A DNA stretch of 64,000 bases from positions 1 through 64,000 of the forward strand of contig NZ_SZQA01000035.1 in the NCBI RefSeq assembly GCF_005233835.1. The letters are read 5' to 3'. Under the pieces are notes generated by a model. That model worked only from the letters and a program-made list of their open reading frames with translations. It ran no database searches and was not told where the DNA came from. This document shows, piece by piece, positions 1,700 through 19,161 of the stretch. The position numbers and the translations under genes are program-made. Origin of the DNA: Herbidospora galbida. GTDB lineage: Bacteria > Actinomycetota > Actinomycetes > Streptosporangiales > Streptosporangiaceae. Position 1 is the first letter of the stretch, and every line of letters begins with the position of its first letter.

Positions 1700-1897
1700 A
1701 ACAGCTATCAGGGGTTTCCTCTGTGACCTGCGCCTCCTGTCGCACTACCGCCCTCCCATGAAAGATCATCCCGTACATATCACACCGCTCGCACCTACCC
1801 CGGACTACCGGGACTACCCACACGTGCCGAACTTGAGCGGACGTTGCCGGACATGGGGCCGATACCGCCGGTACAGCCAGTGAGAGCACGGTCGGCG

Positions 1898-2230
1898 TCA
1901 GGCCGCCCGATAGGCACCCCGCTCATAAGGCGATACAGACTGCATCCCGTATTTCGTCATCCGCTGATATCCAGACACCGAGTGCGGACGAGGGGACTGG
2001 CGCTTCTCGATTCCGGCCACGGACTCGGGAAACAATTCGGTTTTCCCGAATTCCTCAATAGTGTCCAACCCCTTCGTCCGGCTGATAAGTACGGCGGCCG
2101 CGACGACGGCCGCACCGCCGACAGTTAAGATGATCTTATTGTTCTTCTTGATCCACTTCTTTACGGTCTCGGAGACGGGGGCGGTCTCGCCGACCTTGGA
2201 GGTGGTCTGGTTGTGCATGGGGGCGTTCAT
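1898..2230 (-). CDS. Small single-span membrane protein
   Basis: Hypothetical protein of 110 residues. A hydrophilic N-terminus (MNAPMHNQTTSK) and a basic stretch WIKKNNK precede one hydrophobic segment, IILTVGGAAVVAAAVLIS, at about residues 33-50. A charged C-terminal tail of about 60 residues follows. An in-frame ATG at 2275 would add 15 residues; I prefer 2230 because a weak AAGGGG lies upstream of it. It is the first gene inside the left att copy, downstream of and in the same orientation as the methyltransferase operon. It may be element cargo. No family recognised. Confidence 0.5.
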   Translation of the reverse strand: MNAPMHNQTTSKVGETAPVSETVKKWIKKNNKIILTVGGAAVVAAAVLISRTKGLDTIEEFGKTELFPESVAGIEKRQSPRPHSVSGYQRMTKYGMQSVSPYERGAYRAA

Positions 2231-2401
2231 GCACACAGATCTACCGGACGCACCCCTTAATTGTCGAGAAATCACCCGACATCGCCTAATCGAGCAGAGC
2301 CGGCGCGAGCAAAGGAACCGACTGAAGCGCGAAGACGGCCCTCTCGCAAGGCAGTGGAGACCTAGGACCCGGCTGTGTCGATGTGCCCGAGTTCAGACGT
2401 A

Positions 2402-5312: not shown

Positions 5313-5633
5313 TCCTGGCTCCATCCCGAGGTGGCCAACACTGCGGTTGCAATTGTAGTGATGTTGCGACCAAGTGCACTGACGTGCTGATCATTCCATA
5401 CCATACCTGCGAACGTCGGGCATACGCCCGGGGCAATCTCGTCGAGACGGCCACAGCAGGAAACCCACCCCCGGTCAGCTATGTCCGGTGGAACCAGGCG
5501 CCAGCCACCTGCAGAGACGATGTGATTGCTGAAGGTAGCTAGAACTTGCGCCTAGGTGACACCCTCTTGCGATGGGTCAGCTTCGAGCGGACGATCCTGA
5601 GAGGCGACTCCCTCCCAAGGAAGCGAGCGAATC
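5313..5633. other. Intergenic region upstream of the DUF262 operon
   Basis: No gene is supported here. For the minus-strand operon, a TACAAT hexamer lies about 45-50 bases upstream of the 5312 start and could be a -10 element; no clear -35 is seen. A short hairpin CGGGCATACGCCCG lies near 5417. Confidence 0.4.
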
Positions 5634-5990
5634 GTGATCTCAATGCTGATCTCGATCGCGTTGAACCGCAGGCTGAGCGGCGATCCCCGCTATGTCCGCT
5701 GCGCAGCCTGCGGCCACACGGCAAGCGAACTTGAAGCGCCACTGCTCATCTCAATGCGGTTCACCTTTGTCCAGGGGCAACCCATGGATGGAGATCAGAT
5801 GCCAGCAGTGTGGACGTGCCCCTCCTGCGGTCGCGCCGGCCCATTGGAGGTGGGCGAGTTACTGGCGAACGACACTCTTTTCGGCTGCCGACGAACTTTG
5901 CTCTGCCGATACCGTTGGACGGTCCCGAACAGTGCCTCCACGGTCACCTGCCCCCGCTGCTACACCGGCCAACCTGGCCCCGCCGCCTAA
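5634..5990 (+). CDS. Small zinc-ribbon-like protein
   Basis: A 118-residue hypothetical protein with several paired cysteines: CAACG near residue 23, CPSCG near 62, single cysteines near 84 and 91, and CPRC near 107. This suggests one or two zinc-ribbon folds, possibly for nucleic-acid or protein binding. The GTG at 5634 has GGAAG about 10 bases upstream; an ATG at 5643 is an alternative. It lies between the defence-like operon and the AICE regulators and is transcribed away from the former. No named family recognised. Confidence 0.55.
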   Translation: MISMLISIALNRRLSGDPRYVRCAACGHTASELEAPLLISMRFTFVQGQPMDGDQMPAVWTCPSCGRAGPLEVGELLANDTLFGCRRTLLCRYRWTVPNSASTVTCPRCYTGQPGPAA

Positions 5991-6027
5991 TGCACGCGCT
6001 TGGGGGTCCGACTGACGTCGTATAGCT

Positions 6028-6070
6028 GCGCCGGTCGCGACCGGCCGAAGAGCCGCAGCGCGACCGGCGC
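6028..6070. repeat. 12-bp perfect inverted repeat
   Basis: GCGCCGGTCGCG at 6028-6039 is matched by CGCGACCGGCGC at 6059-6070, with a 19-base loop. There is no T-run on either side. It could terminate the upstream gene or form a structured cis element together with the adjoining 45-bp repeat at 6080-6124. Confidence 0.6.
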
Positions 6071-6079
6071 GGGCGGCAC

Positions 6080-6124
6080 GCCGCAGGCGGGCCGCCTTGA
6101 AGACGTAAGGAAAATCCTCATCGA
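6080..6124. repeat. Right copy of the 45-bp dispersed repeat
   Basis: Near copy of 10-54. On the minus strand a 44-codon frame (6121 down to 5987) runs through the repeat and the adjoining inverted repeat. The corresponding frame at 10-54 is broken by a stop, so I do not call a gene. More likely a conserved cis-acting sequence of this element family. Confidence 0.55.
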
Positions 6125-6157
6125 GCGGACCAAGTGTTCTTGATCAGCTCGACTCGT

Positions 6158-6436
6158 TCAGGCCTCGGGCGGGCTGACAATCGATCCCTTGCCTGGCTTG
6201 GTCGTGATCAGCCCGCGTTCCCGGAGAGCCTCCATGGCCTTCCGCACGGTGACCCGAGCAACGTCGAACTCCTCCTGAAGCTTGACTTCGGAGATGAGCG
6301 TGAGCGGCGGATAGGTCCCGTCCTCGATCCGGCCGGCAACGACGTTGGCTATCTGCTCCCACTTGTAGAGCCTGGGGTCCCACTCGATCACGTGACGACT
6401 GTAGGTATGCCCCCACCTGCGAACATAGAACAGCAT
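6158..6436 (-). CDS. GntR-family DNA-binding regulator
   Basis: A 92-residue protein that is almost only a GntR winged helix-turn-helix. KWEQIANVVAGRIEDGTY is followed by LQEEFDVARVTVRKAMEAL (recognition helix region) and ERGLITTKPGKGSIV (wing). There is no effector-binding domain. It is divergent from 6489-6704 across a 52-base gap with repeated CCTAGG motifs, so it probably represses the divergent pair and itself. Confidence 0.85.
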   Translation of the reverse strand: MLFYVRRWGHTYSRHVIEWDPRLYKWEQIANVVAGRIEDGTYPPLTLISEVKLQEEFDVARVTVRKAMEALRERGLITTKPGKGSIVSPPEA

Positions 6437-6488
6437 GTCCTAGGTACGGCATAGACAGGATAGGACAGGTTGACCTAGGCTCATCTTC
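6437..6488. promoter_or_regulatory. Divergent promoter/operator region
   Basis: The 52-base gap between two divergent genes contains CCTAGGTA (6439-6446) and ACCTAGG (6473-6479). The same core occurs as TACCTAGGTA at 9025-9034 in front of the SCO3933-type gene. Two related GntR regulators lie beside these sites, so a common operator core ACCTAGGT is inferred. Confidence 0.5.
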
Positions 6489-6704
6489 ATGGCGACGCGA
6501 TCGGACATCGACTCTCTCCGGACCGCCTTCCCCAACTGGGTGCTGTTCCGCAGCGACGAAGGCGTCTTCTACGCCACCCGGCGCGGCGTAACCCTGGACT
6601 GGGAGCAACTCGCCGAGGGTCTGATGCAGACCGTCGCAGCCGACACCGCTGACGACTTAGCCAAGACCATCAAGACGCAAGAGTGCCCGGACGGCACCCA
6701 GTGA
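6489..6704 (+). CDS. Small conserved AICE hypothetical protein
   Basis: A 71-residue acidic protein (MATRSDIDSLRTAFPNW, then VFYATRRG and LDWEQLAEGLMQTV). Small proteins of this kind are common next to GntR genes in AICEs; function unknown. Its TGA overlaps the GTG start of the next gene by 4 bp, so the two are translationally coupled. Expression probably depends on the divergent GntR regulator. Confidence 0.7.
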   Translation: MATRSDIDSLRTAFPNWVLFRSDEGVFYATRRGVTLDWEQLAEGLMQTVAADTADDLAKTIKTQECPDGTQ

Positions 6705-6997
6705 CCAGCCTCAAGGCGTTGGACGCCGCAACTCACGGTCCGCATGTGTCGCCACCGCATCCCGAATCCGGGCGTGTGCGTTGGCTCAGTCCCACCAGTC
6801 GCGCCGTCCGCGTGCGCGTTCGCCGGCACACCTGCGAGTGCCAGCCCACTCTCTATGAGCTGTGTCAGTCGGGCGGCCTGATGTTCATCCGCCGCACGCG
6901 AAGAGTCAACCACCCTTCGACGATGGAGACGGACTGGCTTCCCACCCGGGACGCCGAGCAGCTCTGGACCAGGATCCTCACTGGCGAAGTCCGATAA
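6701..6997 (+). CDS. Conserved AICE hypothetical protein
   Basis: A 98-residue hypothetical protein. The C-terminal half, TLYELCQSGGLMFIRRTRR followed by ETDWLPTRDAEQLWTRIL, is the part I recognise as typical of small proteins in actinomycete integrative elements. I chose the GTG at 6701, which overlaps the preceding stop (GTGA), over an upstream frame start at 6683. Forms a two-gene unit with 6489-6704. Function unknown. Confidence 0.7.
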   Translation: MTSLKALDAATHGPHVSPPHPESGRVRWLSPTSRAVRVRVRRHTCECQPTLYELCQSGGLMFIRRTRRVNHPSTMETDWLPTRDAEQLWTRILTGEVR

Positions 6998-7015
6998 GGA
7001 CTCGATCTATTCGCG

Positions 7016-7040
7016 ATATTGGAGGTGATAAAACCAATAT
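7016..7040. promoter_or_regulatory. Inverted repeat, possible operator
   Basis: ATATTGG (7016-7022) and CCAATAT (7034-7040) form a perfect 7-bp inverted repeat with 11 bases between them. It starts 18 bases after the stop at 6997, so it may also act in transcript end formation, though it is AT-rich. Confidence 0.35.
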
Positions 7041-7137
7041 GTCCAGTCGGTGATTCTCCTCATCGACAAATACCGCACTGATTCATAGCGCGCATTCCCG
7101 CAGGCCAGCGAAGGTCATGCGGGCTTAGGCGCTGCCC

Positions 7138-7158
7138 ACTGGCAGTTTTTCTGCCAGT
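7138..7158. promoter_or_regulatory. Perfect inverted repeat upstream of XRE gene
   Basis: ACTGGCAG and CTGCCAGT form an 8-bp perfect inverted repeat around TTTTT, ending 53 bases before the XRE regulator start. The position fits an autoregulatory operator. A hairpin role is possible, but the T-run is in the loop rather than after the stem. Confidence 0.45.
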
Positions 7159-7211
7159 CCCCGCAACGCCCCGACCTATCGTCGAGTCACGACGACAAAG
7201 GAGGGGTGGGC

Positions 7212-8429
7212 ATGACGGCAACCGAACACATGACCACGGGCCAGCGAATCGCACGCGCCCGTTATCGCAACGGCTGGGATCAAGCCACGCTGGCCGAGAA
7301 GATCGGCCGCTCGGTCTCCTGGCTCTCGAAGGTGGAGAACGGACGGCTCCCCCTCGACCGTATGAGCGTCGTCGGCCAGGTCGCCGAAGCGCTGAACGTC
7401 GAGATCGCCGAACTGACCGGCCAGCCCTACCGGCACGACACCGCAGAACTCGACTCCGGTCATTCCGCGATCCCGGGTCTCCGCCTCGCTCTCCAGCACG
7501 CGAGCATGCCGGGTGGTGCAGCCTTGCTCGGCAGTCGCGAACCACGCGACCTTGCCGAACTGGAGGCCAACGTCAAACTGGCCGAACGGCTCCGCCAGGA
7601 CGCCCGGTTCAGCGCCCTCGGCGAAGTGCTTCCCGGCATCATCACCGATCTCCTGATCTCAACGAACGACGAGAGGAACCGCGACAGGGCCGAAGCGCTC
7701 ATGCTGCGTGCCTGCCACATGGCGCGAGTCTCGTCCAACCTGCTCGGACATCACGACCTCGGCTGGACCGCTGTCCAACGCGAACTGGTCGCCGCCCAAC
7801 GGGTCGGCTCCCCCGAACTGGTCGCCGCCGCAGCTTGGGACCTGTGCGGCGTCTGGCTCCACGAAGCCTCCGTGGACGCCGCGAAGAACGCGGCCTTGGC
7901 CGCACTCGATCAGATCGAACCTCACGTCGGCATAGGGGGCGAGACCATCAAGGCGCTGTGGGGCGCCCTCCACCTGCGGGCGGCCGTCGCGCATTCTCGC
8001 CTCTGGCGAGCGGTCGAAGCGGAAAGTCACCTCGCCGAAGCCCGCCGAGTGGCCGTCGACCTGCCGGGGTCCGGCAACGTCTTCCAGACACAGTTCAACC
8101 AGGTCAACACCACGATTCACGCTGTGGAAGTCAGTATGGAGCTCGGTCGTCCACGCGAGGTCATCTCGCGCGCCGAAGACGTCGCCGTCGCAGAGATCGC
8201 CTCGTCAGAACGCCAGGCCCACTACTGGACCTGCGCGGCGGCCGGCTACCTCATGAACCGCAAAGAAAGTGATGCACTAGATGCGTTGCTGCGCGCGGAT
8301 CGCATCGCGCCACAGCACGTCCGCAACCGCCCACTGGTCCGCAACCTCGTGCGTGACCTCCGTGACAGCGGTAAGCACCGTCGCGAACGCGAGGTGTCCC
8401 ACCTCGCCTCGGTGATGCGGCTTGCCTGA
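7212..8429 (+). CDS. XRE-family regulator with TPR-like C-terminus
   Basis: A 405-residue protein. The N-terminal helix-turn-helix (about residues 8-65: GQRIARARYRNGWDQATLAE, then SWLSKVENG) is XRE type. The long helical remainder (LAERLRQDARFSALGEVLPG, repeated Ala-rich helices) resembles the TPR-like sensor part of actinomycete XRE regulators. The ATG at 7212 is chosen because AGGAGG lies 7 bases upstream; a GTG at 7206 is too close to that site. Its place between two GntR genes suggests control of the element. Confidence 0.85.
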   Translation: MTATEHMTTGQRIARARYRNGWDQATLAEKIGRSVSWLSKVENGRLPLDRMSVVGQVAEALNVEIAELTGQPYRHDTAELDSGHSAIPGLRLALQHASMPGGAALLGSREPRDLAELEANVKLAERLRQDARFSALGEVLPGIITDLLISTNDERNRDRAEALMLRACHMARVSSNLLGHHDLGWTAVQRELVAAQRVGSPELVAAAAWDLCGVWLHEASVDAAKNAALAALDQIEPHVGIGGETIKALWGALHLRAAVAHSRLWRAVEAESHLAEARRVAVDLPGSGNVFQTQFNQVNTTIHAVEVSMELGRPREVISRAEDVAVAEIASSERQAHYWTCAAAGYLMNRKESDALDALLRADRIAPQHVRNRPLVRNLVRDLRDSGKHRREREVSHLASVMRLA

Positions 8430-8449
8430 TCGCCTACATGGGGTGATAC

Positions 8450-8596
8450 GTGGCTCTCAACGACATCGAGCGGCAGATCTTGTTGCAGGAACTCGCGGAG
8501 ATCTCGGCGGACCTGTCCGACCTCCAACGGCGCACTGTGGCGATCACTGCTCGGGTTGATCGGTCCGAGTCCGGGCGTCCAGCTCGTCCAGCCTGA
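8450..8596 (+). CDS. Small helical protein (48 aa)
   Basis: A GTG-started frame encodes 48 residues beginning ALNDIERQILLQELAEISAD, a likely coiled coil. It begins 20 bases after the XRE gene, with GGGG 6 bases upstream. Its 3' end overlaps the convergent GntR gene (8544-8930) by about 53 bases. Either a real small AICE gene or a chance frame; codon usage looks coding. Confidence 0.45.
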   Translation: MALNDIERQILLQELAEISADLSDLQRRTVAITARVDRSESGRPARPA

Positions 8597-8930
8597 GACT
8601 CAGTTTGTGCATGTGTTCGCGGATCTCGCGGAGTTGCTCGGAGATGATCGCGAACTCCTCGCTCTGCTGCGCGGCGGGGGCCTGCCGCGCGCCGGTCGCC
8701 TCGGGACGCTCGATCACAAAGCTTCCCGTGCCCTGGCGCGTCTCGATCAGTCCTTCATCGCGCAGCACAGCCAGGGCGTTGCCGATGGTCATCATGGCAA
8801 CGCCGTACTGTTCCGCCAGCTCACGCGCCACGGGGAGTTGCTCCCCTACGGTGTAACGCCCGTGCGCGATCTCACTGCGGATGCTGTCGGCGATCCGCAG
8901 ATAGGGCCGCCGTCGATCCGTACCTGCCAT
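8544..8930 (-). CDS. GntR-family regulator (KorSA-like)
   Basis: A 128-residue protein. The N-terminal GntR winged helix (YLRIADSIRSEIAHGRYTVG, ELAEQYGVAMMTIGNALAVL, RDEGLIETRQGTGSFV) is followed by a C-terminal coiled coil (EQLREIREHMHKLSLRLDEL). In pSAM2-type elements a GntR repressor of this kind controls the transfer/replication promoter. Here it is divergent from the SCO3933-tra-rep-xis-int operon across a gap with palindromes. Confidence 0.87.
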   Translation of the reverse strand: MAGTDRRRPYLRIADSIRSEIAHGRYTVGEQLPVARELAEQYGVAMMTIGNALAVLRDEGLIETRQGTGSFVIERPEATGARQAPAAQQSEEFAIISEQLREIREHMHKLSLRLDELDARTRTDQPEQ

Positions 8931-9073
8931 GGCACCACCGTACAGGTTCTAGACATCTAGGTCTCTGGGCAACTTCTGTCGAGCTCCTTAGGGCGACATC
9001 GCTATATCGGTTTACAGATCTAGTTACCTAGGTATCTTTATATGCAGTACACCAACTCTTCAAGGAGTCTCCA
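8931..9073. promoter_or_regulatory. Divergent control region of transfer/replication operon
   Basis: An AT-richer 143-base gap with TCTAGA (8948-8953), CTAGGT (8957-8962), AGATCT (9016-9021) and the perfect palindrome TACCTAGGTA (9025-9034). AAGGAG lies 9 bases before the downstream gene. Likely operators of the adjacent GntR repressor; the core matches sites at 6437-6488. Confidence 0.55.
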
Positions 9074-9418
9074 GTGCGCAACATCCCCATCCCCGTCGAC
9101 ACGAGCAGGCTCGCCATCACCTGTGTGAAGGCCCCGCAACCGCGCATCCGCGACCGACAGACAGGAGAGATCAAGGTCGACAAGAACGGCCAGACGGTCT
9201 ACGAGATCACGACCTCGACCGAAGACGCCTTCGGCAGGATCGAGCTGGTCAAAATCGCCGTCGCCGGCGAACCGCCCGTCGGCGTCGGTCAGCGAATCTT
9301 CCCCGTCAACCTGGTCGGCTACGTCTGGGAGATCGCCGGACGTTGGGGCATCTCCTACCGCGCCGATTCGATCATCTCGGCGGAGACCGCACAGGTGGGG
9401 GCGAAGTCCCGTGACTGA
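9074..9418 (+). CDS. SCO3933-family regulatory protein
   Basis: A 114-residue protein (start MRNIPIPVDTSRLAITCVK; middle DRQTGEIKVDKNGQTVYE). This matches my memory of the SCO3933-type family found directly upstream of FtsK/TraSA-like genes in AICEs. It is first in the plus-strand operon, overlaps the next gene by 8 bases, and starts at GTG. A role in transfer or its control is inferred from position only. Confidence 0.75.
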   Translation: MRNIPIPVDTSRLAITCVKAPQPRIRDRQTGEIKVDKNGQTVYEITTSTEDAFGRIELVKIAVAGEPPVGVGQRIFPVNLVGYVWEIAGRWGISYRADSIISAETAQVGAKSRD

Positions 9419-10742
9419 CCACCTGGACTGGCTCGCACTGGTGGCCGCTTCGCTGTCCTGGCTGGTGGCCTGGCGGCTCTGTCACCCGCGTTCGTTCTGG
9501 TACGCCCTGGGCTACCCCCTGACCGCCCTCCGCGTCCGTGCGACGTGGCGCAAAGTCGCCCTTGGTTGCGGGCTGACCAAAAAGCGTCAGCGCTTCTGGT
9601 TCACCACCGTCCCCGGGCTGATCGCCTCGACCGGCGTCGTACAGGTCAAGCGACGCTGGCAACGCATCTCCGTCGACACCAAGCCGTGGATGTGGCTACC
9701 ACTGCCCACCCGGCACGGCTGGCGCGTCACCCTGCACCTGCTCGAAGGCCAGATACCCGCCGACTACTCCGAGGCGGCCGAACGCCTGGCGCACTCCTGG
9801 GGCGCGCACGCCGTCCGCGTCTCCTCCGACAAGCCCGGCCGCCTGCGCCTGCACGTCACCATGCGCGACCCGTTGGTCAAGCTCGACAACCTCCCGGCGT
9901 CTCCGGACCTCCTGAAGATCACGGTAGGCGCCCTGGAGACAGGCCGCCCTTGGGTGATCGACTTCCGGACTGTCCCGCACTGGCTCAACGCGGGCGCCAC
10001 CCAATCCGGCAAGTCCAACCTGGCCAACGCTCTCATCGTCGGACTGGCCCCCCAGCCCGTCGCCCTGGTCGGCTTCGACCTCAAGGGCGGAGTCGAGTTC
10101 ACCCCGTACAAATCCCGCTTATCCGCCCTGGCTACCAGTCGCCCCGAGTGCACCGGCCTCCTGGATGACCTGCTCGGCATCATGACCGACCGGATGGACC
10201 TGTGCCGCATGGCCGGCGCCCGCAACATCTGGCAACTCCCGCCCTACATGCGACCGACCCCCATCGTCGTCCTGGTCGACGAGCTCGCCGAGCTCTACCT
10301 GATGGCCGACAAGAGCGAGAAAGACGACATCGCCAAGACCTCCACCGCGCTCCTGCGCGTGGCCCAACTCGGCCGCGCCTTCGGCATCTACCTGTTCTGC
10401 TGCGGCCAGCGCATCGGCTCCGACCTCGGACCCGGCGTCACAGCACTCCGCGCTCAGTGCTCGGGCCGCGTCTGTCACCGCGTCAACGACCCCGAGACCG
10501 CGACCATGACCCTCGGCGACCTCGACCCGGCCGCCCTGGACTCCGCCCGCGCCATCCCGGCCGAAACCCCCGGCGTCGCCATCGTCGCCGGTCAGGACGG
10601 CCAGTGGTACCGCGCCCGCTCCCACTACGTCAGCGAAGCCACGGCCGAACACTCCGCCCAGACCTTCGCCCACCTGACTCCCGCCTGGGAGGACCTCATC
10701 AACCCCAACCCGGTCGCCGACCCGGCGCCCAAAGGAGCCTGA
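9411..10742 (+). CDS. FtsK/SpoIIIE-type DNA translocase (TraSA-like)
   Basis: A 443-residue protein. N-terminal hydrophobic segments (about 8-35) suggest membrane attachment, and the ATPase domain has Walker A GATQSGKS (195-202) and Walker B PIVVLVDELAEL with D290/E291. Length and motifs fit the TraB/TraSA proteins that move double-stranded DNA between mycelia in actinomycete conjugation. The mobile substrate is bound at a clt site, which I could not place. It lies in the operon with the Rep, Xis and Int genes. Confidence 0.9.
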   Translation: MTDHLDWLALVAASLSWLVAWRLCHPRSFWYALGYPLTALRVRATWRKVALGCGLTKKRQRFWFTTVPGLIASTGVVQVKRRWQRISVDTKPWMWLPLPTRHGWRVTLHLLEGQIPADYSEAAERLAHSWGAHAVRVSSDKPGRLRLHVTMRDPLVKLDNLPASPDLLKITVGALETGRPWVIDFRTVPHWLNAGATQSGKSNLANALIVGLAPQPVALVGFDLKGGVEFTPYKSRLSALATSRPECTGLLDDLLGIMTDRMDLCRMAGARNIWQLPPYMRPTPIVVLVDELAELYLMADKSEKDDIAKTSTALLRVAQLGRAFGIYLFCCGQRIGSDLGPGVTALRAQCSGRVCHRVNDPETATMTLGDLDPAALDSARAIPAETPGVAIVAGQDGQWYRARSHYVSEATAEHSAQTFAHLTPAWEDLINPNPVADPAPKGA

Positions 10743-10744
10743 CC

Positions 10745-10906
10745 TTGCGCATTCGCCTCGAAGGCAGCCACGCCGAGATCACGTACGTGGTCATCCGGCT
10801 CCGCCAGATCTTCACCGTCATGTCGGTCACCCGGCCCAGGCCGAACCGCAAGCGGCGCGGCCACTACCGGTCTGACCTGACCCTCATCCCGCGCAAGGTC
10901 CGCTGA
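10745..10906 (+). CDS. Small basic AICE protein
   Basis: A 53-residue basic protein starting at TTG (LRIRLEGSHAEITYVVIRL, ending LIPRKVR), with AAAGGAG 7 bases upstream. Tiny proteins of this type often lie between tra and rep genes in AICEs. Function unknown. It begins 3 bases after the translocase gene. Confidence 0.7.
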   Translation: MRIRLEGSHAEITYVVIRLRQIFTVMSVTRPRPNRKRRGHYRSDLTLIPRKVR

Positions 10907-11004
10907 CCGGCGCGACGCCCCCCGCCTGGCCACACAACCGCCAAGTTCCGCGCCAGGCCGGGGGCCATCCCACACAGATCACCTCTGCTAAGGACGGTCC
11001 CATC

Positions 11005-12366
11005 TTGCCCCACCCCACCGCTTCGCACGCGGTCGCCGGGATCATCGCCCGGCTCGACGACCCTCGATACGCCCGCTGGGCCGCGCAGATCAGGCGCACC
11101 GGCGGATGCCGTCAGCCCATCCACCTCCGGGGCTCCGTCGACCACATCGACGCCGGCACCGGCGAACTCCTCCACCGCTACAGCACCCGCAGCGAACCCG
11201 ACGGCGTCCTGCGCGTGGCGTGCAAGACTCGCCGCGCCTCCCGCTGTCCGGCCTGCGCCGAGACCTACCGCGCCGACACGTACCAACTGATCCGCGCGGG
11301 CCTGGTCGGCGGCAAGGGCGTACCGGCCTCGGTCAGCGCGCATCCGTCCCTGTTCGTCACCCTGACTGCGCCGTCCTTCGGGGCCGTGCACGCGCGCCGA
11401 GAGGCCAACGGACGAGTCCACCCGTGCCGCGCTCGCCGGAAGGCTGCACCCTGTCCGCACGACCGGCTTCTGTCCTGCACCGTCCGCCATGCTCCCGACG
11501 ACCGCCGCCTGGGCGAACCGCTGTGCCCCTCGTGTTACGACTACACCGGGTCGGTCCTGTTCAATGCCACCGCCCCTGAGCTGTGGCGACGCTTCACCGA
11601 AGCCCTTCGCCGGCGACTCGCCAAAACGGGCGGCCTGCCCCTGCGGGAACTTCGTGAGCACCTCATGCTCTCCTTCGCCAAGGTCGCCGAGTACCAGAAA
11701 CGCGGCGTGGTCCACGTGCACGCCGTCATCCGCCTCGACGGTCCGACCGGTCCCGACTCGCCGCCTCCAGACTGGGCAACCGCCGGCATCCTGGCCGACG
11801 CGATCCGGCACGCCGCGAACGCCGTCACGGTCACCGTTCCCATCCCCGGCCAGCCTGGCCGAATCCTCACCTGGGGCGATCCGAGCAAGGGTCTGGACAT
11901 CCGCCCCATCGCCACATCCGACGACCTGACGGAACAGGCCGTCGCCGCGTACATCGCCAAGTACGCCACCAAGGCCGCCGAGTGCGTCGGCACGCTCGAC
12001 CGTCGAGTCGGTGCACTCGACGACCTGTCCGCCCTGCCCGTCCGCGACCACGCCCGGGAGCTCATCGCCGAGTGCCTGCGATTGGGCGCCCTGGATGAAC
12101 TCGCCGACCTCAACCTGATCCGCTGGGCGCATATGCTCGGATTCCGCGGCCACTTCTCCACCAAATCCCGCCGCTACTCCGTCACCATGGGCGCCCTCCG
12201 AGCAGCCCGCGAGGAACATCAACGCGGCGATGAGATCGGTACAGGTCGCATCCCGCTGTTCGACGAAGACACCGCCCTGGTCATCGCTCGCTGGGAGTAC
12301 GCCGGAAAGGGCCTGTCCCTCGGCGAAGCGGTCTTGGCCCGCGCGATCGTCGGGGGCGCCGTATGA
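11005..12366 (+). CDS. Replication initiator (RepSA-like, HUH-type)
   Basis: A 453-residue protein. Paired cysteines CPAC (81-84) and CPSC (174-177) suggest zinc binding. HVH (237-239) in RGVVHVHAVIRLD is the metal-binding histidine motif, and YIAKYATK (Y316, Y320) carries candidate catalytic tyrosines. This layout is that of rolling-circle RepSA proteins of AICEs, which nick and restart replication after excision. The TTG start at 11005 has AAGGACGG 7 bases upstream. Its stop overlaps the xis start (ATGA). Confidence 0.88.
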   Translation: MPHPTASHAVAGIIARLDDPRYARWAAQIRRTGGCRQPIHLRGSVDHIDAGTGELLHRYSTRSEPDGVLRVACKTRRASRCPACAETYRADTYQLIRAGLVGGKGVPASVSAHPSLFVTLTAPSFGAVHARREANGRVHPCRARRKAAPCPHDRLLSCTVRHAPDDRRLGEPLCPSCYDYTGSVLFNATAPELWRRFTEALRRRLAKTGGLPLRELREHLMLSFAKVAEYQKRGVVHVHAVIRLDGPTGPDSPPPDWATAGILADAIRHAANAVTVTVPIPGQPGRILTWGDPSKGLDIRPIATSDDLTEQAVAAYIAKYATKAAECVGTLDRRVGALDDLSALPVRDHARELIAECLRLGALDELADLNLIRWAHMLGFRGHFSTKSRRYSVTMGALRAAREEHQRGDEIGTGRIPLFDEDTALVIARWEYAGKGLSLGEAVLARAIVGGAV

Positions 12367-12554
12367 GGCGGAACGACGAACTCCTGACCGTGCGGCAGAT
12401 CCTCGACGAGCTCGGCGGCGTCTCCCGCCGCACCTTCTACCGCTGGCGCGAACTCGGCCACGCCCCACGCGGCCTGAAGCTGCCCAACGGCGAGATCCGC
12501 GTGTACCGCAGCGAGCTCGCCGCCTGGCTGGACACCCTGCGGGAGGTGTCGTGA
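12363..12554 (+). CDS. xis: Excisionase (Xis-like, MerR-type HTH)
   Basis: A 63-residue protein: LLTVRQILDELGGVSRRTF, YRWRELGHAPRGLKLPNG, YRSELAAWLD. This is the helix-turn-helix_17 fold of small actinomycete excisionases. It overlaps rep by 4 bp and int by 4 bp, the usual AICE order. With the integrase it should direct excision from the tRNA gene. Confidence 0.9.
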   Translation: MRRNDELLTVRQILDELGGVSRRTFYRWRELGHAPRGLKLPNGEIRVYRSELAAWLDTLREVS

Positions 12555-13921
12555 ACCCCTCGTACGACGTCAAGCTGTGGGAGATCAAGCGCAACCAGTC
12601 GAGCAAGACGCCGTCCTACGTCGTGAGGTGGGCGGTCGGCCGCAAAGAGAGGTCACGGACCTTCCGGACGAAGGCCCTGGCCGACAGCTTCCTGTCCGAC
12701 CTCCGTCAGGCGACCAAGCGTGGCGAGGCGTTCGACGTCGACACTGGGTTGCCCGTGTCCATGGTCCAGGCCAAGAAGGCGACGAGCTTCTACGTCTTCG
12801 CGCTGGGATACGTCGACATGAAGTGGCCTCACGCGGCGGCCAAGACTCGCGACAGCATGACCGACGCCCTGAGCACGGTCATCCCGGCTCTCGTCAATGA
12901 GGACGCGACCGGCAAGCCCGAACCGTCCGTGATGCGTCGGGCGCTCCGGCAGTACGTGCTCTCGCCGACAACCCGCGACATTCCCCCACCTCAAGAGATC
13001 AAGGAAGCGCTCACCTGGCTTGAAAAGAACTCCCTGCCGGTCGAGGAACTGGCCAAGCCACGCCTTGTCCGACTGGGCTTGGACGCCCTGACAGTCCGCC
13101 TCGACGGCACCGCCGCCGCGCCCACCACGATCGCCCGAAAGCGTTCGGTCTTCTACAACACCCTTCAGTACGCCGTCGATCTGGAAGAGCTTCCGTCCAA
13201 CCCGATCGACAAGGTCAAGGCGTGGAAGCCTCCGAAGGTCCGGGAGGTCGTCGACCGCCGCGTCGTAGTGAACCCTGGCCAAGCTCGCGAACTGCTGAAC
13301 GCGGTCACCTACGTGGGCCTCGTCAAGCGGGGGCGCCACCTGAAGGGGTTCTTCGCCTGTCTCTACTACGCGGGCCTACGCCCGGCCGAAGCCCTCGCGC
13401 TTCGTATGGGTGACTGCCGCCTGCCCGAATACGATTGGGGCCTTCTCCTCGTCGCCAAGTCCAAGCCCCAGTCCAACAAGCGCTGGACCGACAGCGGCGA
13501 AGGCCACGACGATCGAGGACTCAAGCACCGTGCAGCAGACGAGGGCCGGCCGGTGCCCATCCCTCCCCAACTCGTCACCATCCTCCGGGATCACATCGAA
13601 GAGTTCGGCGTCCACGAAGACGGTCGCCTGTTCCGGACCTCACGCGGCGGGATCATCTCGATAGGCACGTACTGCGAGACCTGGCGGGCCGCTCGCGCCC
13701 TGGCCCTCACGCCCGAACAGGTCGCGTCTCCCATGGCCGCCCGACCCTACGATCTCCGGCACGCCGCCGTCAGTCTGTGGCTCAACGCCGGAGTAGCTCC
13801 ACCCGACGTTGCCGACCGCGCCGGCCACAGCGTCGACGTCCTGTTGAAGGTCTACGCCAAGTGCATCGACGGCGGCGCAGAGGTCGCCAATCGTCGTATC
13901 GGCACGGCTCTGGACGAGTGA
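12551..13921 (+). CDS. int: Tyrosine site-specific integrase
   Basis: A 456-residue recombinase. Catalytic residues by motif: R277 in AGLRPAEAL, R403 in YDLRHA (the usual first histidine is Tyr400), H426 in RAGHSVDV and nucleophile Y435 in VLLKVYAK. The GTG start overlaps xis by 4 bp. It should recombine attP with the 3' part of tRNA-Ser. Unusually it is not next to att: about 3 kb separates it from the tRNA. Two remnants of close relatives lie at 1145-1366 and 16586-16642. Confidence 0.93.
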   Translation: MNPSYDVKLWEIKRNQSSKTPSYVVRWAVGRKERSRTFRTKALADSFLSDLRQATKRGEAFDVDTGLPVSMVQAKKATSFYVFALGYVDMKWPHAAAKTRDSMTDALSTVIPALVNEDATGKPEPSVMRRALRQYVLSPTTRDIPPPQEIKEALTWLEKNSLPVEELAKPRLVRLGLDALTVRLDGTAAAPTTIARKRSVFYNTLQYAVDLEELPSNPIDKVKAWKPPKVREVVDRRVVVNPGQARELLNAVTYVGLVKRGRHLKGFFACLYYAGLRPAEALALRMGDCRLPEYDWGLLLVAKSKPQSNKRWTDSGEGHDDRGLKHRAADEGRPVPIPPQLVTILRDHIEEFGVHEDGRLFRTSRGGIISIGTYCETWRAARALALTPEQVASPMAARPYDLRHAAVSLWLNAGVAPPDVADRAGHSVDVLLKVYAKCIDGGAEVANRRIGTALDE

Positions 13922-13984
13922 CCAGGAGCGCTCAACCGGCCCCGTTGACTTATTCGGTCACGGGGCCCTCGTCATGTCCGGCTC
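13865..13984 (+). repeat. Direct repeat: int 3' end and terminator, copy 1
   Basis: The last 18 codons of int, its terminator and the following GTCATGTCCGGCTC are repeated at 16586-16707 with scattered differences. The two copies flank the orphan gene at 14351-16540. Confidence 0.85.
13938..13967 (+). terminator. Terminator of the integrase operon
   Basis: GGCCCCGT(T)GAC pairs with GTCACGGGGCC, giving an 11-bp stem with one bulged base. There is no long T-run, which is common in high-GC actinomycetes. Confidence 0.65.
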
Positions 13985-14001
13985 TTCAACAAAGCTCAAC
14001 C

Positions 14002-14022
14002 GTGTCAACTCCTGGTTGACAC
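14002..14022. promoter_or_regulatory. Perfect 8-bp palindrome, putative operator
   Basis: GTGTCAAC - TCCTG - GTTGACAC, with AGCT also flanking both sides. It lies about 330 bases before the orphan gene start. The right arm contains TTGACA, a -35-like hexamer, so a regulator bound here could control that promoter. The remaining 14023-14350 has no gene. Confidence 0.5.
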
Positions 14023-14350
14023 AGCTCCGGCTGCTCAGAAATTGGTATAAGCCCGGCCCACACGGCGATTCCGTGATGTACGGTGCGTGGAATCGTGCCC
14101 TTGGCGGGGGCGATGCACCATCCCGGAGATCGCTTCGGGGGCTTCCAGAAGGAAGCCATCTAGTACGCGCATGGCCGGTGACATGAACCGCGCCCGGCGA
14201 TGTGACCAGGTGTGGGGCTTTCGGATCCGTCAAGCGACGCAGCGCGGGCCTTCATGATCCCCGCGTCCCCATTTGGCGTATCACGAGCTAATAGGGGCAG
14301 GGCCCCGGCGACTGCCGGATGGCGCCCAGGATCAGAGAGAGCAGACGGAT

Positions 14351-16540
14351 ATGTCTGTTGATCCCCAGTTCCAGGCACCCCATCTCGGCGGAGGGCATCA
14401 CCCCGACCAGCCGAATACTCACTCCAACGAGCGGTGGGACCCCATCACGCTGAAGGTCGGCGATGAGACGCTGACTGTCAGTAACTTCAGCCACGAACTC
14501 CCTGCTCCGTCAGAAGTTCGCGATCGCACCAAGCTGGTGCGCGCCGGTGAAAACAACCCCTACTGCGCGCTGCCGGAGGACGGCTGGCACGCGCTGGCGC
14601 GGGCGATTGTGCATCCGGCCGCGCTGACAGCGCAGCTTTCGTACCAGTCTGGCACTGGTGGGTCATCGCTCATTGAGGAGCACGTCGGCGGAGCGACCAT
14701 GCGCTCGGGAAACGGCCGCGTCTGGCTGACCGAGATCTTCACGTTGGTGCAGCCACGTATCGGGCAAGATCCCCATGCCGAGTCAGACCCGGAGATCGAG
14801 GGCGAGTTGATCGCCGATGCCGCCCAGGCGATGCTGGTGTACCGGTTTCGCGACCAGAATCATCTTCGTAACTACCTGCGCCAGACGATCATCGCGACCC
14901 GGAATTCCAACAAGCAGTACGACGAGTCCATTCTCAGCCGGCGCATCACTCGGGCGGTCGTCGCGCACATAGCCCGCATCGAATTCTCCGACGGGTCCGA
15001 ATCCTTCTACGTCCTAGTCGTCCGCGACGGAATCACTCGCGTCGTCAGCGCTTGGGGCGCATTGTGCGGGGATCAGGCGACCCCTGAAGAGATCGCCGAT
15101 CGGGCCATTGAGGTCATGCTTTCCGAAAAGCCCGCGCGCCGTGGAGCGGACAAGCCACAGACCCAGCGCATGGCACTCGGCCGGCAGGGTGAACTCGACA
15201 AGTTGCGTGCCTCCTTCATCCGTGGACTGAGCGGCACCACCCCCGCCGAGGAAGCGATCAGAATTGGACAGGCGATCGTCGTACCGGCACAGATCGCCGT
15301 CGGGCTTCAGGTGCACCCCGGTTCTGGGCTGCCTCCCGGCGAGGTCTTTGATGACGCCGTCCGCAGCATCCTCTCCTCGATCCATGTTGAGTTCGGCATG
15401 TGGGATTCGGCCGCACAAAACGCCGAAATCGGCTCCCGCGCGCTCAAGCGGACCATGCTCGACGGTGTCAACGACACCACCGGTATCAATGTCGCCGATG
15501 TATACCGGTTGGCCATCGGCCACTATCCGCCTGAGCAAACGCCCCAGGTCTTTCGCGACCCCAACATCCCCGGCACACCGCTTTGGCGTGCAGTATTCCT
15601 GGTCCACTACCTGACCCGCCCGCCTGTCTTCGCGGTCATGAAGAAGCACGTAAAGACAATCGCGGGCAAGCAGCGGCTGCGCACCAACACCTACGCGGAG
15701 ATCCTCGGCCCTATTACCGACCGACCGTGGCGTCTGGCCAAGAAGCAGACCCTACGGCAGGCACGCAACGCCTGGGGCAATGGAGGCGTGCTCACCAAAG
15801 AGGTCACCGACTCTGATTGGCAGCCGACCCCCTGCTCCGACTTCACCTCGCTGGTCGAACCGGCCGCCTCAGGCAACCTCGACGCCAGGCTTACCTTGGC
15901 CGTCGCCGGTGGTATCGCGCTGATCACCGACAAGTTGCTGACTCGCAGCGTCGGCTCGGCGGTTGATCACACCGTCCCGTTTCGCTCCGATGTCGACGAC
16001 GTCATCGCCATGCTGGCCAGGGCAGAAAACCCCGCCGGCCTGCTCCTACTTGCCCACGCCGCCGACCGGTTCGACGCCGGTCGGGTAGCAGTGAACTCCT
16101 TCACCAACAGTCAGTTGATCAAAGAGGGTGGCGAGGACAACCGCTACACGATGGTCGCCGTCGATCTCGAAGCCGAGGATGGCATCGCCCGCGACGGAGC
16201 AGGCGTACCCCGCCGCCTCGACGAGTGGACAGTCGTCGCGGTGTCCGACCCCAAGCGCGCGGCCCAAGAAGAGGATGGACGTACAAAGGACAACGACACC
16301 GAGCCCAAGTCGGTACTCGATCAAATGGCTGACCACCGGCGCAAACTCCTCGGTACCCTTACCGATGCACAAGAGGCCCTTACCCAGCTCATGCGGCTGA
16401 GCCAAACATCAGACGCCGCAGGTGCCCATCCCCTTGGCTCCTCCCGTGAATGGGCAAAACTCTCGAAGCTCGCCGTCAAGGTTCAATCGACGATCTCCTC
16501 CAATGATCCGAACCCCGACTCTGATGACGATGCGGTTTAG
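14351..16540 (+). CDS. Unrecognised 729-aa protein, AICE cargo
   Basis: I recognise no family. The start at 14351 (MSVDPQFQAPHLGG) is chosen over 14273 because the extra N-terminus looks non-coding and a purine-rich stretch precedes the ATG. Visible features: QAMLVYRFRDQNHLRNYL, then a segment ending YVLVVRDGITRVVSAWGAL, loosely like the DGxTR/DGxxR motif of ParB/Srx- or DGQHR-type proteins. A long alpha/beta middle follows, then a C-terminal helical region and an acidic tail SDDDAV. No membrane segments and no P-loop seen. It sits alone between two copies of the int 3' end. Position as element cargo suggests defence, competition or regulation, but this is inference. Confidence 0.8.
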   Translation: MSVDPQFQAPHLGGGHHPDQPNTHSNERWDPITLKVGDETLTVSNFSHELPAPSEVRDRTKLVRAGENNPYCALPEDGWHALARAIVHPAALTAQLSYQSGTGGSSLIEEHVGGATMRSGNGRVWLTEIFTLVQPRIGQDPHAESDPEIEGELIADAAQAMLVYRFRDQNHLRNYLRQTIIATRNSNKQYDESILSRRITRAVVAHIARIEFSDGSESFYVLVVRDGITRVVSAWGALCGDQATPEEIADRAIEVMLSEKPARRGADKPQTQRMALGRQGELDKLRASFIRGLSGTTPAEEAIRIGQAIVVPAQIAVGLQVHPGSGLPPGEVFDDAVRSILSSIHVEFGMWDSAAQNAEIGSRALKRTMLDGVNDTTGINVADVYRLAIGHYPPEQTPQVFRDPNIPGTPLWRAVFLVHYLTRPPVFAVMKKHVKTIAGKQRLRTNTYAEILGPITDRPWRLAKKQTLRQARNAWGNGGVLTKEVTDSDWQPTPCSDFTSLVEPAASGNLDARLTLAVAGGIALITDKLLTRSVGSAVDHTVPFRSDVDDVIAMLARAENPAGLLLLAHAADRFDAGRVAVNSFTNSQLIKEGGEDNRYTMVAVDLEAEDGIARDGAGVPRRLDEWTVVAVSDPKRAAQEEDGRTKDNDTEPKSVLDQMADHRRKLLGTLTDAQEALTQLMRLSQTSDAAGAHPLGSSREWAKLSKLAVKVQSTISSNDPNPDSDDDAV

Positions 16541-16569
16541 CGTCAGTGTCAGTAAGTAGAACATGCAGA

Positions 16570-16597
16570 ACCACCAAAGATCATTATTGATGGTGGT
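16570..16597 (+). terminator. Hairpin after the orphan gene
   Basis: ACCACC/GGTGGT and ATCA/TGAT pair around a TTAT loop, starting 29 bases after the orphan stop codon. There is no T-run. It overlaps the start of the integrase remnant. Confidence 0.45.
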
Positions 16598-16642
16598 GCC
16601 AAGATCGCCACTCGTCGTATCGGCTCAGCACTGGACGAGTGA
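16586..16642 (+). pseudogene. Integrase C-terminal remnant (second)
   Basis: Only the last 18 codons remain: IDGGAKIATRRIGSALDE and stop, versus IDGGAEVANRRIGTALDE in the intact int. It is followed by a related terminator and by flanking DNA that leads to the tRNA-Ser gene, with similarity to 1430-1634 on the left side. So this is the natural int-att junction of an element, from which int has been cut off. 16708-16977 contains no gene. Confidence 0.85.
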
Positions 16643-16659
16643 TCAGTAACGCCTGATCA

Positions 16660-16690
16660 GGCCCCGTTGACTCCATTCGGTCGCGGGGCC
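16660..16690 (+). terminator. Terminator of second integrase remnant
   Basis: GGCCCCG and CGGGGCC form a 7-bp stem, extended by GAC/GTC with bulges. It corresponds to the hairpin at 13938-13967. Confidence 0.6.
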
Positions 16691-16977
16691 TTCGTCATGT
16701 CCGGCTCGTCCAACACCTTGCTCCGATGGACCTGGGCGAAGCCCTGGGCCGCCGATCGCCCCCAGCCTGACCGGGACATCAGCCACCGCAAGGCGATCGT
16801 AGGGAGATGCGTCTACGGACCTAATGACCTGGCGAAACACCACCAAGATCATCCCGTGAATATCCCGTGATCAACGACATGGAGCCGCCCACGACGGCCC
16901 ACGGTTGCACACATGGGAAATGATCACCAGGCCACCCGACACTCATAAGGCCAGGTCAGACCGCGTTTTCCAAGCTG

Positions 16978-17042
16978 AGCGGAGAGCGTGGGATTCGAAC
17001 CCACGAGGAACGTCACCGCCCCTAGCGGTTTTCAAGACCGCC
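16978..17042. repeat. attR: Right att copy inside tRNA-Ser
   Basis: 65 bases identical to 1635-1699. The core runs from the tRNA 3' end through the T arm, variable arm and anticodon loop, as usual for AICE att sites. Confidence 0.9.
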
Positions 17043-17068
17043 GCCATCGTCCACTAGGCGAGCTCTCC
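16980..17068 (-). tRNA. tRNA-Ser (UGA)
   Basis: 89 bases. Acceptor stem GGAGAG/CTCTCC, T arm GTGGGTTCGAATCCCAC and a long variable arm typical of serine tRNA. The anticodon stem GCGGT/ACCGC carries the loop CTTGAAA, giving anticodon UGA for UCA codons. CCA is not encoded. The gene is intact because the element restores the 3' part on integration. Confidence 0.95.
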
Positions 17069-17148
17069 AGCGCACCCCTGTAAGGCGGTGCCACAAAACG
17101 CAACCCTACTCTCTCCCGCCCCCACCAGAGGACGGGAGAGCCACGCCA

Positions 17149-19161
17149 CTAGATGTGATCCGGAATCTCGGAGTACCGCCGCTCCCCAACCCCCGGCGCC
17201 CCCGCGAACCCGTCCCCCACACAAGCCGCCAGCCGAAGGAACGCCGCCCGAGTAGGCTCCTGCAACCTCTCCAGGTCGATCTCCGCCCCCTCCTCAAGGT
17301 GAGGGTCGTAAGGCACCCGGACCACAGCCCGGCACCGAGCCGCGAAGTGCGCCTCAAGCCGCTTGAGGTCGACAGTCGACTTCGACCGGGGCCGCACGCT
17401 GCACAACACCACGGTCGCCGACCGAACCAGGTCCCCATAGTCGTGCGCCTCAAGCCAGTCCAAGGTCGCCGAAGCAGCCCGAGCCCCGTCGACCGAAGGG
17501 CTGCTCACCAGCACCAGTTGGTCGGCCAGGCCGAGCACACCGGACATCGCCGAGTGCAGCAGCCCGGTCCCGCAGTCGGTGATGCAGATCGAGTAGAAGT
17601 TCTCCAGGACGGCGGAGACCGCCTGGTAGTCCTCGGCGGAGAAGGCTTCGGACACGGAAGGATCCCGGTCGGAGCCGAGGATCTCCAGCCGCGAGGGCGT
17701 CTGCGAGGTGAAGGCCCGGATGTCGACGTACCGCCGGATGTCCCCGCGCTCGTTCAGCAGGTCGCGGATGGTCGCCGACGTCTCGAGTTCGACCTTGTCG
17801 GAGAGCGTTCCACGGTCGGGGTTGGCGTCGACGGCGATCACGCGGTCGCCGCGGACCTGTGCCAGCGTCGCGCCGAGGCCCACCGTGGTGGTCGTCTTGC
17901 CGACGCCGCCCTTGAGGCTGAGCACCGCGACGCGGTGGTGGCCGGCCGAGACGGGGGTGCGGGCCCGTGCGACCAGTTCCTGCCGGCGGCGCACCTCAGG
18001 GGCCTCACCGGGCTTTATCAAGCCGGCCGTCGCCTTGAAGACGACGCGCCGCCAGCCGGTGGCCGGTCCGTCCTTGCGGCCCTTGAGGAGGGTCGCGGGG
18101 TCGAGGCTGTCGGCCGAGGGCTTCGACGAGCGGGGCACCAGGGCCCGCGACGGGGCCGAGAAGGCCGGGGCGGGCAGGTTGTCGGGCTGGCGGCGCCGCG
18201 CCTGGTAGGGCTCGCGCTCCGCGATCTCCCGCGACTCCGAGAGGGGTGGCTGGACTTCTCTCGTGTACGCGTCCAGCGCCTCCCGCGCCGAAGTCCGGAA
18301 GGTCTCTCCGGGGCCGGGGGCGGGTTCGGCCGGCTGGCTGAGGTTCTCCCGCAGGGATCCCCTTAACGGCTCCTCGGCGTCCCGGATGGGGCGGAAGCGG
18401 TCGCCGGGGTCGGTGTCCTCGACGGCCGGGGTCTCCTCGACCTCGGTGCCGGGCCAGGAGAAGCGGCCGGAGTCGTGGTCGGTCAGCGGCTCCGACGGCA
18501 GCTTGAACGGCCCGGAGTCGGAGTCGCTCTCGGGGCGCGCGACCCGGTCGGTGTCGCGGGAGAACCTGAAGCCGCCGGAGTCCGATTCGCTGTCGGTACG
18601 CAGCCCGAAGGTCCCCGGGTCGGTGTCGTTACGCCCGAAGCTCGCCAGATCGGCCACCGTCTCGGGCGAGAACCGGCCCGTCTCGGCGTCGGGCCGGGGG
18701 AAGCGGCCCGAGTCGGCCTGCTCCTCGGACACCGGGACGGCCGGCTCCAGCCAGCCGCGTACCGGCTCGTCGGAGAGGTCGGGCTCGGCCGGTGGCCGCT
18801 CCCCGAACGCCCCCACGTTGTAGGAGTCGGTGTCGACCGGGGAGTCCCCGAACGCCCCTCGCCCGTTACCGAACGGCAGCGGGTCGAGCGTCTCCACCCC
18901 GTTGTCGATCGCGGGCGGCTCGTCGACCGCGGCGACCGCGCGGAAGGGCGCCGGCTCGGCCGGGACCGACCGCCATGGGTCCTTCGGGTATGGCGAAGGC
19001 ACCTCGTCGGTTGGCGTCACCGGCTGCTGGGTCGCAGCCAGGGACGACGCCGTCACCGCGGACACCGCGATGTCGACCTCGTCGGGCATCTCCTTGATCG
19101 CGTCGAGCCAGGCCAGCTGGTCTTCGAGCGAGTGGGGATCCTCACGATCGTGTCGTGCCAC
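17149..19161 (-). CDS. MinD/ParA-like ATPase with long acidic N-terminus
   Basis: A 670-residue protein. Residues 1-390 are low-complexity, acidic and Pro-rich, with recurring DSGRF/SDSGPF/DSGGF-type units. Residues 410-640 form a ParA/MinD domain with deviant Walker A SLKGGVGKTTTT (KGGVGKT at about 417-423), then VDANPDRGTLSDK and DCGTGLLHSAMSG. The layout resembles EspI-like or secretion-linked MinD proteins of actinobacteria, but no ESX genes are nearby. The GTG at 19161 is chosen (GAGGGG 8 bases upstream) over an ATG at 19242. Role in positioning or secretion inferred. Confidence 0.8.
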   Translation of the reverse strand: MARHDREDPHSLEDQLAWLDAIKEMPDEVDIAVSAVTASSLAATQQPVTPTDEVPSPYPKDPWRSVPAEPAPFRAVAAVDEPPAIDNGVETLDPLPFGNGRGAFGDSPVDTDSYNVGAFGERPPAEPDLSDEPVRGWLEPAVPVSEEQADSGRFPRPDAETGRFSPETVADLASFGRNDTDPGTFGLRTDSESDSGGFRFSRDTDRVARPESDSDSGPFKLPSEPLTDHDSGRFSWPGTEVEETPAVEDTDPGDRFRPIRDAEEPLRGSLRENLSQPAEPAPGPGETFRTSAREALDAYTREVQPPLSESREIAEREPYQARRRQPDNLPAPAFSAPSRALVPRSSKPSADSLDPATLLKGRKDGPATGWRRVVFKATAGLIKPGEAPEVRRRQELVARARTPVSAGHHRVAVLSLKGGVGKTTTTVGLGATLAQVRGDRVIAVDANPDRGTLSDKVELETSATIRDLLNERGDIRRYVDIRAFTSQTPSRLEILGSDRDPSVSEAFSAEDYQAVSAVLENFYSICITDCGTGLLHSAMSGVLGLADQLVLVSSPSVDGARAASATLDWLEAHDYGDLVRSATVVLCSVRPRSKSTVDLKRLEAHFAARCRAVVRVPYDPHLEEGAEIDLERLQEPTRAAFLRLAACVGDGFAGAPGVGERRYSEIPDHI

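Follow-up and report, generated by a model that had tools for sequence, protein, structure and literature searches.

The window, a 64,000-nucleotide stretch of the Herbidospora galbida genome (contig NZ_SZQA01000035.1, positions 1 to 64,000), carries near its left end an actinomycete integrative and conjugative element (AICE) in which a gene for a 729-residue protein lies between the integrase gene (int) and the attachment (att) site. The element, at about 1636-17042 (about 15.3 kb), is a pSAM2-type (RepSA-type) AICE in tRNA-Ser(TGA); we place it in this class because RepSA, an FtsK-type transfer (Tra) gene and a tyrosine integrase occur together in an element flanked by att sites in a tRNA 3' end. 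Both att sites could be located because a 217-bp repeat (1483-1699 / 16826-17042, 88% identity in a self-comparison) includes a copy of the tRNA 3' part at 1636-1699. The features are as follows.

1157-1353, plus strand: 5'-truncated int 3' end, relic of another, tandem AICE to the left of attL (79% identity to 13712-13908)
1636-1699, no strand: left att, copy of the 3' part of tRNA-Ser, within the 217-bp repeat
2402-5324, minus strand: left-end cargo operon (this and its three genes from Pfam and PADLOC)
2402-3499, minus strand: C5 DNA methylase of that operon
3496-4245, minus strand: HEPN_MAE_28990 protein of that operon
4242-5324, minus strand: GmrSD_N/DUF262 protein of that operon
9411-10742, plus strand: FtsK/SpoIIIE-type transfer gene (Pfam, E 2.3e-24)
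11005-12366, plus strand: RepSA replication initiator (Pfam PF20199, E 1.3e-161)
12551-13921, plus strand: tyrosine integrase (PHROG integrase, E 4.6e-30; Pfam, E 2.1e-5, just under the Pfam cut-off)
13865-13991, plus strand: int 3' end and terminator, left copy (self-comparison); the break in divergence falls within it or shortly upstream
14080-14350, plus strand: conserved noncoding leader, possibly a structured RNA (alignment with Streptomyces locus L029)
14351-16540, plus strand: 729-residue cargo protein, with a DGITR motif at residues 226-230 and a possible ParB/Srx-like region at about residues 104-342
16586-16715, plus strand: int 3' end and terminator, right copy, a relic (self-comparison)
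16826-16978, no strand: att-proximal spacer common to related elements
16979-17068, minus strand: tRNA-Ser(TGA), with attR at 16979-17042

A single gene between two integrase 3' ends

The last 18 int codons, the stop codon (13919-13921) and the terminator are present twice, at 13865-13991 and 16586-16715, and the copies align with 81.5% identity over 130 columns (E 9.5e-27, self-comparison). A separate repeat search recovered the same pair, split into three pieces. Between the copies, a filter based on G+C content at third codon positions left a single long open reading frame (ORF), 14273/14351-16540, which encodes 729 residues from the ATG at 14351. A preliminary description, made from the letters alone, had proposed this duplication of the int 3' end with one gene between the copies, and both parts of the proposal are borne out. 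A third int 3' end, beyond the pair in that description, is the right-end relic at 1157-1353, which belongs to another AICE; the noncoding leader directly before the gene is likewise an addition to it.

The same arrangement is found in Herbidospora cretacea (genome G001, locus L028). Between the two species, the right int relics share 90% identity and the left copies 84%, whereas comparison of left with right within one species gives 80-82% (80% in the window). The int repeat marks one old event common to the two species. H. cretacea also has a second AICE (L094), in which int is complete, the cargo codes for FHA and kinase proteins, and an att copy has no full tRNA; it resembles the relic at 1-1699 of the window, the likeness of the int ends of L094 and of the 1157-1353 relic being judged by eye.

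Elsewhere in the element, the left-end operon matches the PADLOC models NsnA (E 5.2e-56) and PD-T4-2_A (E 1.4e-27) and is a candidate defense system at the end opposite the cargo gene. A 48-bp direct repeat (9-56 / 6079-6126, 87.5% identity) lies at the contig start and to the right of this operon. A weak match of the integrase to pPIWI_RE_Y (E 0.0074, below the cut-off) was judged to be due to chance.

Divergence of two elements and the int-att interval

In 150-base bins, identity to the H. cretacea element is 89-100% between 6.0 and 13.8 kb, where only three bins fall under 93%, and 72-95% beyond 13.8 kb. The number of synonymous substitutions per site (dS) between the two species is 0-0.05 in six backbone ORFs, one of which (6134-6454) may have been assigned to the wrong strand. 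Within int it is 0.10 for codons 1-416 and 0.44 for the last 40 codons, the latter estimate resting on few sites; it reaches 0.54 in the cargo gene, and six chromosomal genes on the right-hand side have values of 0.12-0.46. The cargo protein is under purifying selection, the ratio of nonsynonymous to synonymous rates (dN/dS) being 0.11 in the comparison with H. cretacea and 0.17 in that with Streptomyces cellulosae.

The break in the int 3' end and the differing divergence of cargo and backbone therefore support recombination between related AICEs, apparently an exchange at the int 3' end that brought a young backbone together with an older cargo module. On the simplest reading of these alignments, the age of the module would be close to that of the species split, and a near-identical, younger backbone would have joined it in each lineage. 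The module would have consisted of an int 3' end, the cargo gene, the second int 3' relic and att, resident at tRNA-Ser before the two species separated; homologous recombination in the int 3' end of the younger AICE backbone would later have linked the two. The divergence data illustrate in this way how an AICE could gain resident cargo through the 3' end of its own integrase gene.

The interval in which the gene lies was surveyed in related elements. An integrase search at E 1e-40 matched 241 of 338 family-level genomes, and 30 integrase loci were fetched; two of them belong to the window and to the H. cretacea element, and the other 28, with integrase identities of 61-87%, were compared. 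The distance from the int stop codon to the tRNA is 206-235 nt in 12 of these 28 loci (an empty slot) and 741 and 926 nt in two, and in the other 14 no tRNA lies within about 1.5 kb of int; the six of those 14 that were extended all reach tRNA-Ser, at 1.6-4.7 kb. From these empty, short and long spacings we conclude that the int-att interval is a variably filled cargo slot in this AICE group. In a sister AICE of the same genus (L088, genome G004) the slot holds a Lamassu-type pair, with an LmuB-like gene (E 4.4e-67; Pfam AAA_23 only) and an LmuA-like gene (E 4.4e-16). The slot of L094 holds two FHA proteins and a protein kinase, and the slot cargo of L089 and L091 has no Pfam match. The Lamassu-like pair is the one clear case of known defense genes among these slots, and the int-att interval of these AICEs is a place to look for more of them. 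At E 1e-3 none of nine other extended loci has a second int 3' end, so the repeat is not general for filled slots and seems peculiar to the module with the 729-residue gene.

Of the seven genomes available for the genus, two have the gene within this AICE, and one more has a 45% relative in a different context; the gene as a fixed part of the backbone was not seen. The survey thus agrees with the preliminary description, which had suggested a cargo slot filled through recombination between related AICEs: the slot is empty or otherwise filled in relatives, and the divergence break falls in the int 3' end.

A tentative alternative to this history is tandem accretion, in which the cargo would be the left-end gene of a second AICE at the same tRNA, whose backbone and middle att were deleted so that the cargo and an int 3' end were left. 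Tandem AICEs are documented in passages of PMC3218068 and occur at this site, where the int relic within 1-1699 has its own att; the incomplete tRNA at the att copy of L094 and the presence of cargo beside att at the left end of the element are also consistent with it. However, the self-comparison gave no trace of att between 13991 and 14351 at E 1e-3, and the mosaic divergence would require later recombination anyway. That there was no recombination at all, the cargo side evolving faster and the int repeat being an old local duplication, is very improbable: the repeat copies are indeed diverged (81.5%), but dS, not just dN, climbs from 0.10 to 0.44 within int, and each right copy is closer to the right copy of the other species than to the left copy of its own.

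The cargo protein, its relatives and the noncoding elements

Searches of Pfam, NCBIfam, PADLOC and PDB sequences gave no match to the 729-residue protein. Its sole PHROG row has an E value of 0.11, and a PDB profile search returned two ribosomal proteins (E 0.31 and 0.97). That the protein might prove to belong to a housekeeping family, an outcome raised in the preliminary description, was not found in Pfam, NCBIfam or PDB sequences.

With the single protein as query, 7 of 341 family-level genomes matched, the own genome included. One of these (G281; L007, L016) is taken to be a chance match, weak and within a 998-residue gene that we take to encode glycyl-tRNA synthetase, and it was removed from the family. 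A profile query matched 9 of 345 order-level and 7 of 394 class-level genomes, the own genome being included each time. A contig scan gave 16 loci of the family; relatives were found in 3 of 72,556 plasmid records and in none of 50,697 phage records, and none was found in viral contigs by a search sensitive to close relatives only. Within the 16 loci (the match and up to 10 kb on each side), the integrase query matches fully in L028 only, with a fragment in L033.

The relatives have repeated gene partners. In 10 of the 16 loci the gene immediately upstream codes for DUF3800 (by a model built from 8 of those 10), and all four of the DUF3800 genes submitted to Pfam scored over the cut-off. A GIY-YIG-like gene overlaps downstream in two of the 16 (model from L042, L043 and L008), the Pfam matches being below the cut-off at E 0.002-0.018. 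The remaining four, L028, L029, L037 and L038, have neither partner. The plasmid relative L008 has the GIY-YIG-like gene, and the plasmid relatives L009 and L010 have other small genes in that place. DUF3800 was found beside the gene in G006 and G305 and was not found in H. cretacea (G001). A relic of DUF3800 was sought in the window and not found. L037 (9026-9841) and L038 (5689-6342) have another upstream gene type, alike by eye and without a Pfam match in either. In L029 (5545-12445, Streptomyces cellulosae) the gene ends a stretch that adjoins tRNA-Pro and holds an integrase-like ORF, a C5 methylase and a 277-residue protein without a Pfam match.

A PADLOC scan of 106 neighboring ORFs (of 186 within 8 kb of 15 relatives) matched 106 models; it had no background set and we claim no enrichment. 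Among the matches listed (25 of the 106 models) are PD-Lambda-5, a type II methylase, a Cas12f/TnpB-like protein and Csx1, each in one member.

The AlphaFold model of the full protein has a mean predicted local distance difference test score (pLDDT) of 80.7. With a second structural aligner, four sulfiredoxin entries came first (Z 3.6-3.7), with SspE (3.0 and 2.9) and BrxU (2.3) lower in the ranking. A domain model of residues 100-350 (pLDDT 71.8) gave ParB at Z 5.7 (90 residues, 3.8 A), Noc at 4.4 and sulfiredoxin at 3.8, with unrelated rows at 2.8 or below and Spo0J at 2.6. The order SI ... DG-x-[TS]-R is kept in all 17 rows of the family alignment, and the motif of the window protein is DGITR, not DGQHR. 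In a profile comparison with eight GmrSD_N proteins, DGxTR aligned on DGQQR (E 0.013, probability 3.3%); the comparison with DUF3800 gave nothing at the motif. Together, the models and the motif point to a probable ParB/Srx-like domain in the cargo protein; at Z of at most 5.7 the structural matches are suggestive only.

About 270 nt directly upstream of the gene are common to the window, L028 and L029. The window and L029 are 69.6% identical over 263 columns (18 of them gap columns) in this leader, which is unlikely to be coding because the alignment has single-base gaps. Their consensus structure keeps 9 two-sided changes and breaks 12 pairs, compared with 0-3 when the alignment is slid; the structure was derived from the alignment on which it was scored, and three sequences are known. 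The folding energy is not clearly below that of shuffled sequences (window, z -1.4, 10 of 100 as good; L029, z -2.0, 4 of 100). The leader at 14080-14350 is possibly a structured RNA. An Rfam scan of 12000-17200 at E values up to 1 gave the tRNA and two weak matches over it and nothing at the leader. Matches to the leader in G334, G335, G317 and G063 were inspected and judged to be due to chance.

All ten DUF3800 loci have a different element, of two hairpins, in the interval from DUF3800 to the gene, and the window has no meaningful score for it. A model of it (R1), built from these ten copies, recovered those ten and nothing else convincing in 20 sources. In the alignment 5 of 18 pairs have two-sided changes, a number that is low because MAFFT misplaces hairpin 1 in three rows; when the hairpins were scored singly, 0-11 of 300 mononucleotide shuffles reached the observed score. 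The ten carrier genomes held one further clear copy (E 8.7e-9), at L155:1501-1600 of a Streptomyces genome, between two genes without Pfam matches. A search of 173 class-level genomes with stricter filters gave no match at E 1e-4 and is uninformative on absence. No Rfam family scored over its cut-off at the element in L030, L031, L034, L035 and L036. In L035, a BjrC68 match that covers the element on the opposite strand (29.4 bits against a cut-off of 39, E 0.0015) was judged to be a hairpin effect.

Possible function and comparison with known systems

The interpretation that we favor, at a probability of roughly one half, has two parts: the int-att slot of this RepSA-type AICE contains an old cargo module that a younger backbone joined later, and, with less support, the module encodes a ParB/Srx-like sensing or switch protein of an anti-invader system. 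A defense role for the gene is plausible by analogy, because the sister slot holds a Lamassu-like pair and relatives of the gene have nuclease-type partners. Considering these partners, the L088 pair and the weak fold match, the protein would most likely bind nucleoside triphosphate (NTP) and pair with a nuclease, the two forming a small anti-invader system. The ParB/Srx-like domain with its DGxxR motif would bind NTP, and the family would supply the sensing or switch subunit, while a separate nuclease, DUF3800 or GIY-YIG, would do the cutting. Without DUF3800, as in both Herbidospora AICEs, the protein would have to work by itself, rely on a different nuclease or have a diminished function. 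An unannotated actinobacterial protein family is given a candidate fold class, a gene partnership that recurs and a role that can be tested.

Several results weigh against this interpretation. All Z values are below 8, and in the full model unrelated rows are tied with the best ones, rows within 1 Z being counted as tied (proline utilization A at 3.4 and TFIIB, on another region of the model, at 2.6-3.0). Foldseek at E 0.001 was negative for the full model against both PDB and BFVD, and for the domain model against PDB. A profile comparison with 14 ParB proteins gave nothing at the motif, and none of nine members matches the ParB (PF02195, ParB_N), DndB or GmrSD Pfam models at E 1. The cargo protein matches no PADLOC model; DUF3800 was not found in a genome-wide search of the window's genome, and a search covering the window found no GIY-YIG-like partner. 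The dS of the cargo gene (0.54) exceeds that of all six flanking genes, so the gene may instead have been taken up separately from diverged donors. Finally, position alone gives the cargo gene no function, because the element holds the other candidate defense operon. The faint likeness to ParB/Srx or DGQHR proteins noted in the preliminary description thus finds weak support: the domain model has ParB, Noc and sulfiredoxin as its top structural rows and the motif aligns weakly on DGQQR, but Z is at most 5.7 and Foldseek, Pfam and the ParB profiles are negative.

It is unlikely that the protein serves the mobile element rather than host defense, as a ParB-like DNA-binding switch for AICE maintenance, for entry exclusion or for its own leader. 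Orphan proteins of the ParB fold are described in parts of PMC12704722 as often tied to mobile elements, with some regulating genes, and the conserved leader is a possible target. However, the relatives lie mostly outside this AICE, as the integrase matches in L028 and (as a fragment) L033 among the 16 loci indicate, and 12 of 16 adjoin a DUF3800 or GIY-YIG-like gene. We also doubt that the effector is the cargo protein itself, which would then be a ParB/Srx-fold enzyme, either a nuclease or one that degrades nucleotides, and would work by itself or cause abortive infection. ParB/Srx proteins with nuclease activity are known from sections of PMC4619093 and PMC10853773, and the gene persists under selection without a DUF3800 partner, but the same 12 relatives keep a separate nuclease-type gene and the cargo protein matches no nuclease family. 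Distinctly unlikely, in our view, is a broader scheme in which the family would be the core of an RNA-containing defense system, its DGxxR (ParB/Srx-like) NTP switch working with a structured RNA and with an interchangeable nuclease, either GIY-YIG or an RNase H-type DUF3800, whose gene was lost in the branch of Herbidospora and S. cellulosae, where a larger structured leader stands upstream.

Compared with known systems, the cargo protein shares the DGxxR motif with the DUF262 and ParB/Srx-fold restriction proteins GmrSD, SspE and BrxU, and gives weak structural rows for SspE and BrxU. In the profile comparison its motif aligns on the DGQQR of GmrSD (E 0.013, probability 3.3%), but it differs from GmrSD in having no Pfam match to GmrSD_N or to the HNH domain of GmrD, and relatives of the gene have a separate DUF3800 or GIY-YIG-like gene instead. 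The ParB, Noc and sulfiredoxin fold provides the top three structural rows of the domain model, although with Z of at most 5.7, no ParB_N Pfam match and a negative ParB profile comparison. DndB and other DGQHR proteins have a related pentapeptide, and a DndB-like protein is reported in a portion of PMC12704722 to bind ATP and GTP; the cargo protein has DGITR in place of DGQHR and no DndB Pfam match.

DUF3800 proteins are predicted to be RNase H-like and have been seen beside putative noncoding RNAs, according to extracts of PMC10910872. The relatives resemble such systems in the DUF3800 gene upstream in 10 of 16 and in the structured intergenic element, but no Rfam DUF3800 family was found at E 0.5 in the five of ten DUF3800 loci scanned, and the window has no DUF3800. 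With pSAM2-type AICEs the element shares RepSA, an FtsK-type Tra, the integrase and a tRNA 3' end as target. The usual order of such elements is given in part of PMC3218068 as att-tra-rep-int-att, whereas here the cargo gene and a second int 3' end sit between int and att.

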